Both the position numbers and the translations under genes were made by a program. 37,981 nucleotides of DNA from IMG/VR virus record IMGVR_UViG_3300030390_001110, positions 29,895-67,875 of that record. One strand, given 5' to 3'. Numbering within the stretch: the stretch's first letter is position 1; every line of letters begins with the position of its first letter. Below, piece after piece: positions 4,582 to 37,834 of this stretch. A model generated the notes under the pieces. The model saw only the letters and a program-made list of their open reading frames with translations. It was not told the origin of the DNA and did no database searches. The stretch is from a virus.

Positions 4582-4657
4582 TGGTGGAGGATATCAGGAT
4601 CGAACTGACGACCTCCTGAATGCAAATCAGGCGCTCTCCCATCTGAGCTAATCCCCC
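4582..4657 (-). tRNA. tRNA-Ala (anticodon TGC)
   Basis: The sequence is 76 nt including an encoded CCA (4584-4582). The acceptor stem GGGGGAT pairs with ATCCTCC with one G-U, the D-arm reads TTAGCTCAGATGGGAGAGC, the anticodon stem CCTGA/TCAGG encloses a TGC loop, and the T-loop contains GTTCGATCC. All arms pair, so it should be functional. It lies 109 nt downstream of tRNA-Thr in the same direction. Confidence 0.95.
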
Positions 4658-4766: not shown

Positions 4767-4842
<76 letters not shown>

Positions 4843-4857: not shown

Positions 4858-5407
4858 ATGTATTTTTTGTTCTTATATCTATAGCTACATATACTACTAC
4901 TTTAGAGTTAATAGCTAATGGATTTGTAGTTATAAAAACATGCTTAACATTTTGCATTGACGGAACTTCAACTGTTACTTGATATTTAGTAGGTAAAGTT
5001 TGATACTCTGTTTGGTTTATAATTTCGCATTGTTCTACTTGCTTATAACCAACAATAACTTTTTGCCCACCTTTTTTATTGGCAATGTCTGCTCCTAGTA
5101 TTGCACCTAGTATAGTTGCAGCATCTTTACCTTTGCCGCCGCCTACTTGGTTACCAAGTATACCACCAATAATTGCACCACCTAATACGTTACCAGTTTG
5201 TGCACCACCAGTTGTGCCATATATTGGAACTTCTACAACAGAACAAGTTTTAATTGGTTTAACAATTTTTCTAGTTTCTTGTTGTAACGGTTGAACATTA
5301 GTTACGTATGACTCAACCTGTAAAGTAGTTTGTGTAGTATCATATGCAAACACTGATTGTGCAAATAATACCGCTGTTAATATAATACCATATTTAAGTT
5401 TATTCAT
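4853..5407 (-). CDS. secreted glycine-zipper protein (17 kDa surface antigen-like)
   Basis: The start is set at ATG 5407 because AGGAGA lies 7 nt upstream; an ATG 18 nt earlier has no such site. The 184-aa product has a signal peptide (MNKLKYGIILTAVLFAQS, cleavage probably after VFA), then a Cys-containing segment, then a Gly/Ala-rich double helix hairpin (about 75-110: NVLGGAIIGGILGNQVGGG, GAILGAD) typical of the glycine-zipper 2TM domain of Rickettsia 17-kDa antigens. There is no lipobox cysteine at the cleavage site, so it is probably a periplasmic or outer-membrane protein rather than a lipoprotein. The role in a phage is unknown; envelope alteration or lysis are possibilities. Confidence 0.8.
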   Translation of the reverse strand: MNKLKYGIILTAVLFAQSVFAYDTTQTTLQVESYVTNVQPLQQETRKIVKPIKTCSVVEVPIYGTTGGAQTGNVLGGAIIGGILGNQVGGGKGKDAATILGAILGADIANKKGGQKVIVGYKQVEQCEIINQTEYQTLPTKYQVTVEVPSMQNVKHVFITTNPLAINSKVVVYVAIDIRTKNTY

Positions 5408-32666: not shown

Positions 32667-33524
32667 TTATGCTCTACGCATACATGTAACTTCTGCAGTT
32701 CTTTTCCACTTGTCAGTTCCAAAACTTTTCTTAAGATCTGCAAGTTTAGTAACCATACGCAAACTAATCTCACGCATTTTTTCTTTGTTATCAAACATGA
32801 AGTTCATTAAGTCATCTTGCTCTTCTTGTGTAAACTGATATTCATTAAGCATACCATCTGCAACAATCTGCTTACAACGTAATACTTTTTCACGCATTGT
32901 ATCCATTGTAAGATCTAAGTAATGACATCTTGACATAATAGCTGCTAAGTGATCTTTAATCTTACCTCTTACATTATCAAACTTAAGGTTAGTAATAAAG
33001 ATAACACTACCTTTAAATTCAAAAGTATCTGGAATACCTTCACGTCTTAGCAATGCACTATCTGTGTTCCAACTTAGTTTTCTTTTCTTACAAGAGTCAA
33101 GTGCTGCTTTAAGCAAGTTAAGACTTGTCTCATCATACAACACTGTATCACAATCATCTAAAACTAGAACACTGTTTCTATCTGCATTATCAAATAATAC
33201 TTTGTATAGTCCTATTGCAGAACTGGCACCTTTGATAACTTCAAACTTTAGTTTATTACCGGCAATTTTATCAAACAAGTTATTCTTTTCTAATACCTGT
33301 TCAACACCAAATGATTTACCAACACCCGGAGGTCCTGTTACAACCATTCCACGCACAACACCATCTATTGAGGCTTGTGTCATATCGTCTAAAATCTGAA
33401 AACGTTCACGCATACGCTCAATAATTTGAGAATCACTTTCATTTGGATTGTCTTCTACATTATTAGGAAGCACTTCTAAAATCTTAGTTGCTTTTGCTTT
33501 ACGCTTTGTTTGGATTCTTGCCAT
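32667..33524 (-). CDS. AAA+ ATPase, conserved in marine T4-like phages
   Basis: This 285-aa protein has an AAA+ core with Walker A GPPGVGKS at 64-71, Walker B VLVLDD at 119-124, a sensor 1-type VIFITN, and a C-terminal lid. It has a basic N-terminus (MARIQTKRKAKATK) that may contact nucleic acid. It is not a clamp-loader subunit by motif content and no clamp is adjacent. Its transcript starts at a promoter with a palindromic spacer (33560-33588) and ends at the 32625 terminator, so it is a one-gene early unit. Confidence 0.82.
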   Translation of the reverse strand: MARIQTKRKAKATKILEVLPNNVEDNPNESDSQIIERMRERFQILDDMTQASIDGVVRGMVVTGPPGVGKSFGVEQVLEKNNLFDKIAGNKLKFEVIKGASSAIGLYKVLFDNADRNSVLVLDDCDTVLYDETSLNLLKAALDSCKKRKLSWNTDSALLRREGIPDTFEFKGSVIFITNLKFDNVRGKIKDHLAAIMSRCHYLDLTMDTMREKVLRCKQIVADGMLNEYQFTQEEQDDLMNFMFDNKEKMREISLRMVTKLADLKKSFGTDKWKRTAEVTCMRRA

Positions 33525-35000: not shown

Positions 35001-35217
35001 ATAAGCAAAATAGGGAGGACTGGGGTGCACCTCCAAGTAGCACAACTAGATACCTTTTCTATCTACACTACCACCTACTCCTGCGTATCCGCAATGTGAC
35101 TCCCTCCGTTTTCCGGGTAAAGCCTGGGTATAACCCCTGAGCAGTCAAGTTCGACGCCTAGGTAACGCCTCTTCCTTGCACTATAAACATTGAGCCGCTA
35201 AACTCTTTGTTGCTTAT
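35001..35217 (-). ncRNA. structured non-coding RNA of unknown family, about 217 nt
   Basis: No reading frame of note occupies this segment. The RNA ends pair perfectly over 8 bp: ATAAGCAA (35217-35210) with TTGCTTAT (35008-35001). Inside, several hairpins are visible on the minus strand: TGCG-GATA-CGCA (GNRA-like tetraloop), AGATA-N7-TATCT, GGAGG with CCTCC, GGG-TTATA-CCC, CCG-GAAAA-CGG, and a longer-range TGACT/AGTCA helix. A sigma70-like promoter ends 7 nt before it and a strong terminator begins 2 nt after it. The GC content is above the flanks. I could not match it to RNase P, tmRNA, 6S RNA or a known riboswitch. Confidence 0.82.
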
Positions 35218-35224
35218 GTTTATT

Positions 35225-35253
35225 AATATACAACACTTTTAACAAAAGGTCAA
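35225..35253 (-). promoter_or_regulatory. sigma70-like promoter of the non-coding RNA
   Basis: TTGACC (35253-35248), a 17-bp spacer and TATATT (35230-35225). The expected start near 35218 coincides with the first base of the terminal helix of the RNA. Confidence 0.75.
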
Positions 35254-36019: not shown

Positions 36020-36027
36020 TATTTATC
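36020..36027 (-). promoter_or_regulatory. T4-type late promoter octamer
   Basis: GATAAATA overlaps the stop codon of the UvsY-like gene and precedes the oxygenase-like gene by 42 nt, with AGGA before that ATG. Confidence 0.6.
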
Positions 36028-36484
36028 AGAGCGATATATCTTCTAATCCTGCGGCACGTAGTTTAACTACGTTATTGATTTGAAAGCCTTTGGCTTCAAG
36101 TGCCTTGATTATACCAATATATTTGTTTCGTATTAGACTAAAATCATTGATCAGATATTGTAAGTCTACTACGTCTTGTTCACCGTCTACATATTTTTCT
36201 GCATCACGGCTACTTAATGCTTTGTTGTAATTCTCTAAAAATTTTCTAAATGTTTGACTACGTAGTTTACGCATTTCTGTATTTAGATGTTCTAATATTG
36301 CTTCTACTTCTTGTAGCTGATTGAACCTATGTTCAACTATACCAGGCATTTCTCTACTGTGTTTTTCTAACACACCTTTCATGCCACATTCAAACTTTGC
36401 TGCATCAATTTCACATTCGTAGAAAGAGATAGCCGAAACTATCTCTCCCATATTTTGTGAAACTTTACGATACCAGTTAGCCAT
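36026..36484 (-). CDS. uvsY: UvsY-like recombination mediator
   Basis: This 152-aa helical protein resembles T4 UvsY in length, charge and ending: a C-terminal helical hairpin with DLQYLINDFSLIRNK and ALEAKGFQINNVVKLRAAG, matching the UvsY terminal pattern (F-x-I-x-x-I-x-x-x-R). UvsY loads UvsX on gp32-covered single-stranded DNA. Context supports this, since it is encoded two genes after uvsX in the same operon. Similarity is weak, so the call depends on context. Confidence 0.72.
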   Translation of the reverse strand: MANWYRKVSQNMGEIVSAISFYECEIDAAKFECGMKGVLEKHSREMPGIVEHRFNQLQEVEAILEHLNTEMRKLRSQTFRKFLENYNKALSSRDAEKYVDGEQDVVDLQYLINDFSLIRNKYIGIIKALEAKGFQINNVVKLRAAGLEDISL

Positions 36485-36750
36485 TAGTCTTCATCTTCCC
36501 AATATTCTTCTGAATACTCATCATCAGAATCAAGTTCATCGTTAACTTCAAAATGATCTGTAAGTGCTTGATCTAAATGTTCATCATGATCACCTATTTC
36601 TACTGCATGTCTTTTTAAATCTACACCATAATCATCTAGTGTAAAAATAAAATCTTCAGAAAACTTTTCTTTAACTTTATCAGGTATATGTGCAATTGCC
36701 TTGTCAAATATCTGTAAAAATAACTCTAAATCGTTATCACTCAGATTCAT
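36484..36750 (-). CDS. small very acidic protein, 88 aa
   Basis: The C-terminal half is dominated by Asp and Glu (NDELDSDDEYSEEYWEDED), and the N-terminus is a short helical domain (DLELFLQIFDKAIAHIPDKV). AGGAGGT lies 5 nt before the ATG, within the last codons of uvsX, and the gene overlaps uvsX by 14 nt. It lies between uvsX and the UvsY-like gene. It could mimic DNA or regulate the recombinase. Function unknown. Confidence 0.72.
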   Translation of the reverse strand: MNLSDNDLELFLQIFDKAIAHIPDKVKEKFSEDFIFTLDDYGVDLKRHAVEIGDHDEHLDQALTDHFEVNDELDSDDEYSEEYWEDED

Positions 36751-37834
36751 TAACTACCTCCTGGGTATCATTGTCACCGTCATGGTCTTTAATAACATCT
36801 GGTTGTTTTTCCCACTCATCCATAATAGTATCTAAACATCCATCTGTGTTATGTTCCCATGCTTTACGAAATTGTGTTACTACTTCTCCTGTAACAGGAC
36901 TAGTGTATTCAAGTCTATTACCAGTTTTCTTCAATGCACCTTTGCCTTCAAAGAAATCTGTTAATCCACTGTGTGGACTCATTCCTGTTTCATATGGAAT
37001 TTCAACTTGCACACTTTCAAATGGTTTTGAATAACGTGTTTTCATTACTTTACACGCCGCTCTAATACCATGAACTTGTGATGTTTTATTCCCATCTGCG
37101 TCTACTTTTAATTTAAGTTTACGCATTGCAATAACAATACTACTTGCATAGATAAAGCCTTGTCCACCTGATATCTTATCATCTGGATCAAACATATCTT
37201 GCGATGCATATGTATGATTTGTGCATAACATACCAACATTAAACTCACCAAACATGTTAACTGTATTCCTAACCAATGAAGTTAATGCCTTAGGTTTACG
37301 ACCCATGTCACCCTTCATATCACCTTTTTGGAATTGATCTACATCAGTAGGAGTAAGTAACATGCCTAGCGAATCCACAACGAACAATACTTTAGGACGT
37401 TCGTCTTTTTCTTTATCTGTGTATTCTGCTTTATAATCTTTCATGAAGTCGCTTACTGTTCGTGCAACATCATCAATCATACTCATGTTAAGTTTTAGAA
37501 GTTTATCTTCTGCTGTGTCTACATCTAATGCATGTAGCCACTTTTCATCAAGTGCATTTTCACTATCAATTAAGACAACAAAAATACCTTGGTCTTGTGC
37601 TGCTTTTACTACGTTTCCTGCCGCTATATAACTTTTACCTGCACCACTTTCGCCTGCAAGAACAGTTACTTTACCTAACGGAACACCTTTTAGAAAATCA
37701 CCACTAATTAATTTGTTTAGTGTATAATTTCCTGTTGATATCCATGTGTCTGGATCATTAAATCCAACACTTAGTCCAGGAACTGCTTTAGTAATACTTT
37801 TACGGAATTTGCTTACGTCAAAAGGTTTTGCCAT
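36737..37834 (-). CDS. uvsX: UvsX RecA-like recombinase
   Basis: This 365-aa RecA/Rad51-family strand-exchange protein has Walker A GESGAGKS at 61-68, a Walker B-type VLFVVDSLGML, and a MAW-type SGGQGFIYASS segment near the ATP site. It drives strand invasion for recombination-dependent T4-type replication. GGAG stands 6 nt before the ATG. A 13-bp hairpin lies in the leader. The acidic C-terminal tail (DHDGDNDTQEVVNESE) resembles the regulatory tail of RecA proteins. Confidence 0.95.
   Translation of the reverse strand: MAKPFDVSKFRKSITKAVPGLSVGFNDPDTWISTGNYTLNKLISGDFLKGVPLGKVTVLAGESGAGKSYIAAGNVVKAAQDQGIFVVLIDSENALDEKWLHALDVDTAEDKLLKLNMSMIDDVARTVSDFMKDYKAEYTDKEKDERPKVLFVVDSLGMLLTPTDVDQFQKGDMKGDMGRKPKALTSLVRNTVNMFGEFNVGMLCTNHTYASQDMFDPDDKISGGQGFIYASSIVIAMRKLKLKVDADGNKTSQVHGIRAACKVMKTRYSKPFESVQVEIPYETGMSPHSGLTDFFEGKGALKKTGNRLEYTSPVTGEVVTQFRKAWEHNTDGCLDTIMDEWEKQPDVIKDHDGDNDTQEVVNESE

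Follow-up and report, generated by a model that had tools for sequence, protein, structure and literature searches.

A divergent manA RNA homologue of a marine T4-like phage with the features of an autonomous RNA gene

Introduction

In 2010 the manA RNA (RF01745) was put forward among the riboswitch candidates of Weinberg et al. (PMC2864571), who list it as certain to be cis-regulatory and likely to be a riboswitch. The Rfam type of RF01745 is 'Cis-reg'. According to the same article (PMC2864571), 5' UTRs were usually assumed for motifs that are commonly found upstream of genes. This assumption may explain the existing cis-regulatory label of manA. The discoverers also drew an uncertain pseudoknot in manA, marked with a question mark (PMC2864571). 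No ligand or function of manA RNA is reported in the literature searched. Here we describe an RNA locus of a marine T4-like phage that belongs to a divergent branch of manA, in which most copies look like free-standing RNAs and not like a switch attached to a gene.

Results

Organization of the locus

The RNA, of about 217 nt, is found on the minus strand of the window, which is the whole stretch of 37,981 nt of viral DNA that was analysed, and extends from the predicted start at 35217 to the end of its closing helix at 35001. No real gene overlaps it, in agreement with the preliminary description, which had been made from the sequence alone and had also claimed a sigma70-like promoter, a perfect 8-bp terminal helix, a promoter-predicted start at the first base of this helix and a 12-bp terminator, all of which were recovered. 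The promoter, TTGACC-17-TATATT, is at 35253-35225 (minus strand, 10 of 12 consensus matches) and its predicted start is indeed the first base of the closing helix P1a, which is formed by ATAAGCAA (35217-35210) and TTGCTTAT (35008-35001) on the minus strand. The intrinsic terminator (34998-34971, minus strand; -15.2 kcal/mol, z -4.9) starts 2 nt past P1a and has a 12-bp stem, a 4-nt UUUG loop and a U-run. The downstream gene (34801-34067, minus strand), which encodes 244 aa and has a weak match to phrog_3628, of unknown function, has its own start because a second promoter, TTGACA-17-TATACT, is located at 34955-34927 on the same strand and insulates it from the RNA unit. With a terminator and a second promoter before the next gene, the RNA of the window does not have the position of a cis-regulatory 5' UTR. 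The upstream gene (35977-35273, minus strand) encodes 234 aa of unknown function, and the locus is flanked by UvsX/UvsY (36026-37834) and an AAA ATPase (32667-33524).

Elsewhere in the window, positions 286-2759 of the minus strand encode, beside a Vut_1 transporter, two components of a betaine-type ABC transporter, the PF00528 permease and the PF04069 OpuAC binding protein. These genes may be cargo of the phage, or host sequence joined to it at a contig junction.

Fold of the RNA and covariation

All helices are given on the minus strand. P1a is followed by the P2 hairpin (35209-35187), whose sequence varies among relatives while the pairing is retained, and by the 5' strand of P1b (35184-35181), which pairs with 35010-35013. 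The next region (35146..35178) contains P3 (35178-35175/35149-35146) and the P3b hairpin (35169-35166/35156-35153), with the near-invariant internal loop GAAGA/GAA between them. P4 (35145-35139/35080-35073) encloses the hairpins P5 (35137-35126), P6 (35124-35098) and P7 (35094-35081), and is followed by the P8 arm (35071-35037), with the apical loop L8, GGU, at 35054-35052, and by the P9 hairpin (35034-35014), whose loop L9, ACC, at 35026-35024 is the proposed kissing partner of L8. The internal hairpins announced by the preliminary description are present, while its GNRA-like loop is, in the alignment, GAAA in most relatives but of the GAAAA type in the window copy.

Single-sequence folding of the window RNA is weakly informative. 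Without the terminator its fold energy does not stand out (z -1.63, and z -3.30 when the terminator is included), so comparative evidence is needed to prove the fold. A motif scan of viral contigs for TGCAAGGAAGAGGC followed by GAACTTG matched at least 120 stretches, and the structural alignment consists of 36 representatives of the related copies from viral contigs. This alignment supports ten helices: at the 50 proposed pairs, 97.6% of the cells are paired, against 80.2% in shuffles, and 285 cells show double changes, against 78.7, which are distributed over 31 of the pairs. The pairing signal is lost when the partner is slid by 1-3 columns. The clearest examples are P4, with double changes in 6 of its 7 pairs, and P1b, in which UAUAG/CUAUU is compensated to GCUUUG/CAAAGC or GCAUUG/CAAUGC in contigs L167 and L219. 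P3 has no covariation support in the window branch, since its pairs and internal loop hardly vary there. Of the 50 consensus pairs, 44 form in the window copy, which has breaks in P6. Judged by this covariation, which the preliminary description had named as a check, the multi-branched fold of the window RNA is real.

Proposed contact between L8 and L9—Among cyanophage-type copies, the L9/L8 combinations are ACAG with CUGU (75/75), ACAU with AUGU (8/8) and GAAG with CUUU (3/3), with two further copies that fit only partly, a count that is not blind since the loops were read directly. Window-branch copies have mostly UGGU/ACCA in L8/L9, reduced to GGU/ACC in the window copy, and one pair is broken in copies with GGC in L8; the pelagiphage HTVC008M has UUGG/CCAA. 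Covariation thus supports a kiss between the tips of P8 and P9, which would give a compact fold. A contact between L3b and L8, which was considered first, was dropped in favour of L8-L9 as it had no compensatory support.

Homology to manA RNA

The window copy has no match to Rfam, even at E=10, and does not reach the gathering cut-off of RF01745 (55.2 bits). The Rfam search thus gave no strong match that would make it a recognised member of a class, and the family was detected only by scanning its relatives. The relatives L242 (67.5 bits), Mosig (64.0 bits) and L138 (57.5 bits) are above the cut-off, and L151, L137, L244, L258 and L139 are below it, at 45-54 bits. The RF01745-scoring relatives reach about 130-192 bits with R1, the model of the window branch, which detects the window copy, Mosig (176.1 bits) and L242 (132.9 bits); the window and Mosig copies were part of the training set of R1 and L242 was outside it. 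Because relatives found by the same model exceed the RF01745 cut-off, the window RNA is, by sequence bridging, a divergent manA homologue, so far removed that the Rfam model misses it, and is not an Rfam-recognised member. The suggestion that it could belong to a known class as a divergent member is therefore borne out as far as homology is concerned. The secondary structure of manA (P2, P1b, P3, P3b and P4-P9) is present in the window copy, with P6 partly broken.

Among named phages, blastn gives only Pelagibacter phage Mosig EXVC030M, with 71.7% identity to the window and E=9e-16. The copy of HTVC008M, at 5037-5223 and immediately upstream of gp32, is very diverged, with E=5e-5 for RF01745 and E=0.23 for R1. 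Clear manA copies are found in P-SSM2, P-SSM3, P-SSM4 and P-TIM40 (142-193 bits with RF01745), and the search for manA RNA gave no match in Syn9, S-PM2, Syn33 and T4. A weak match in Melnitz (12.3 bits) was not accepted as a copy, and those in the genome contigs L256 and L257 are fortuitous and fall within reading frames. The Rfam models of 6S RNA, tmRNA, RNase P RNA, GOLLD and ROOL have no match in the window, in a member of the close branch or in HTVC008M.

Hypothetical ORFs overlap the manA RNA in HTVC008M (L260, 4993-5163, gp008) and in P-SSM4 (164884-165057, PSSM4_169.1), and these ORFs are probably not genes. Some contigs with the window-branch RNA also contain matches to freshwater-2 RNA and the glutamine riboswitch, at L139 954-1040, L165 2831-2878 and 3324-3406, and L169 237-284. 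In the marine T4-like phages Mosig (L002, 595-933) and Melnitz (L261, 5985-6437), tmRNA (SsrA) genes are annotated upstream of gp32, at a distance of a few kb.

Genomic neighbours

The commonest neighbours in the window branch, named by sequence likeness and by the annotation of Mosig and HTVC008M, are the capsid genes gp22-gp23 upstream or gp32 downstream, and some cyanophage-type copies are close to talC, purL or gp32. The downstream genes fall in many unrelated clusters and the neighbours vary so widely that no single regulated gene stands out. The presence of the RNA is patchy, as most of the loci L012-L044, which contain more distant relatives of the downstream gene of the window, have no detectable copy. 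The same RNA locus is found beside capsid-type genes in L258 and L259, which are 153 and 335 kb long and belong to one Neomarinimicrobiota MAG; they are probably phage contigs binned into it. A hairpin with the conserved arms GACCTAAGATGCAACT...GGGCAGATGGTC, in many cases with a U-run behind it, is present after 21 of 175 copies tested, just downstream of the manA RNA in cyanophage-type loci such as L304, L306, L316, L329 and L333, and may be a structured terminator or other RNA element.

Promoters, terminators and insulation

A sigma70-like promoter is present in all 75 dereplicated window-branch copies, with the end of its -10 box within a 10-nt range before the fold and the predicted start at or a few nucleotides from the 5' end of the RNA; the promoters score 10.4 of 12 matches, against 8.2 in mononucleotide shuffles. 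A perfect promoter, TTGACA-17-TATAAT, precedes the copy of HTVC008M. In cyanophage-type copies, mostly at a narrow set of positions, at least 10 of 12 matches are found in 91% of 100 copies and in 4% of shuffles. A terminator is located directly behind the RNA in 51 of the 75 window-branch copies, against 1.3% by chance in mononucleotide shuffles, and the T4-late-type motif NATAAATA lies downstream in 44, against 2.3% in random segments of the same loci; the dereplicated copies are related by descent, so these counts do not represent independent events. A terminator is missing from several gp32-linked copies, among them those of Mosig and HTVC008M. With neighbouring ORFs called by length only, what follows the 75 window-branch RNAs is a terminator before the next gene (40), a late motif (13), an opposite-strand ORF (8), a tRNA (2) or the contig end (5), and 7 are plausible leaders, with the next gene on the same strand and neither terminator nor late motif between. 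Together with the strong covariation, the promoters and terminators support the preliminary proposal of a discrete, independently transcribed RNA.

These data also bear on the description of manA as a cis-regulatory element, that is, a ligand-binding 5' leader whose following terminator would be conditional, which is the listing of Weinberg et al. (2010, PMC2864571) and of Rfam. A promoter at the start of the RNA also fits a 5' leader, so insulation weighs more for autonomy, and 47 of 100 cyanophage-type copies are plausible leaders that could share a transcript with the next gene, which has the same orientation and from which no insulation was detected, some of them near the talC, purL or gp32 genes mentioned above. 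These copies are mixed and more ambiguous on autonomy; in 6 of them a tRNA gene starts 6-20 nt downstream, an arrangement that, like the opposite-strand ORFs of the window branch, does not suit a leader. The 51 terminated copies carry 32 different terminator hairpins, and in 39 pairs of copies the core is more than 97% identical and the terminators differ. The complementarity of terminator arms to their own RNA (4.86) is like that to other RNAs (4.83), so no antiterminator coupling was found. Terminators that differ between near-identical RNAs and lack special complementarity to them argue against an attenuation switch. With the separate promoter of the next gene in the window, the unrelated downstream genes and a label that may go back to an assumption usually made from upstream position, a cis-regulatory element or riboswitch is an unlikely reading of this RNA.

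Discussion

Function of the RNA

Taken together, the sequence comparisons make it reasonably probable that the window RNA, a manA homologue from a marine T4-like phage, constitutes an autonomous noncoding RNA gene and probably acts in trans through the binding of a protein or ribonucleoprotein. It may sequester a host protein or regulate translation, as the preliminary description suggested. The RNA would be transcribed from its own sigma70-type promoter by the unmodified host polymerase, and therefore early, and would accumulate as a discrete species that acts in trans. The kiss between L8 and L9, for which covariation argues, would compact it. The invariant unpaired elements, of which the GAAGA/GAA internal loop of P3, the UCACAU linker and P9 are the candidates, suggest, with less confidence, that it binds a protein or ribonucleoprotein and does not switch a neighbouring gene.

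An antisense RNA that pairs with host or phage mRNAs through exposed loops would suit an independent promoter and terminator, but this is quite improbable given the elaborate covarying fold with near-invariant internal loops, the engagement of the conserved loops in the L8/L9 contact and the absence of a long, unpaired, conserved seed. Pairing with the anti-Shine-Dalgarno sequence via AAGGA or GGAGGU was rejected, as these sequences are absent from HTVC008M and from most P9 arms. Still less credit is due to a tRNA-like mimic or member of a tRNA array, which would decoy or recruit tRNA-handling enzymes. In the alignment the order of the junction resembles that of a tRNA with a long variable arm (a 2-nt UG linker, a 4-bp arm, long arms and a 5-bp arm that abuts the closing helix), and a tRNA gene directly follows some of the copies, but the CCA end and T-loop sequence are absent, the kissing contact joins different arms, and neither ARAGORN nor RF00005 finds a tRNA at the RNA, the only tRNA calls of the window being at 4582-4657 and 4767-4842. 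An RNA-only assembly like GOLLD or ROOL, with homo-oligomers formed via kissing loops, has a precedent (PMC12286853) and would suit an ornate phage RNA with kissing-competent loops, but is very hard to credit for an RNA that is much smaller, whose L8 and L9 can pair intramolecularly and that has no Rfam relation to them.

The reading as an autonomous trans-acting RNA could be extended, tentatively and with more doubt than belief, to manA RNAs overall, which would then be not riboswitches but widespread autonomous early RNAs of T4-like marine phages, acting in trans on a conserved host machine such as the polymerase, the ribosome or an RNA-processing enzyme, much as 6S and similar RNAs do but encoded by phages. 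Should most copies be RNA genes in their own right, searches for a ligand and cis-reporter assays would be misdirected, and the genome papers of S-CREM1 and S-CREM2, which give a cis-regulatory description, would need correcting. The RNA is carried by the culturable pelagiphages Mosig and HTVC008M and by several Prochlorococcus phages, which makes it feasible to pull down its partner.

Comparison with named systems

The wcaG RNA (RF01761), the other orphan RNA of T4-like cyanophages in the same study (PMC2864571), has no match in the window. The HTVC008M RNA is like the window RNA in its promoter and closing helices, while it is very diverged, under the Rfam cut-off and overlapped by an annotated hypothetical ORF. 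The cyanophage manA RNAs of P-SSM2, P-SSM3, P-SSM4 and P-TIM40 have a sigma70-like promoter just upstream, as the window RNA does, but are found beside pstS, purL or talC and more rarely have strong terminators. Within P3, the internal loop reads GAAGA/GAA in the main window branch but GAAA/UAA in L241-L243.

The window RNA shares with RF01745 the order and position of P2, P1b, the UG linker, P3/P3b, P4 enclosing P5-P7, P8 and P9, as shown by model alignments, as well as the occurrence in T4-like marine phages, the promoter at the start and the L8/L9 contact. The outer helix P1a is additional in the window RNA, as the Rfam model of manA begins at P2. The window RNA is terminated and insulated, unlike an element of the Rfam type given to manA, and this label does not fit it.
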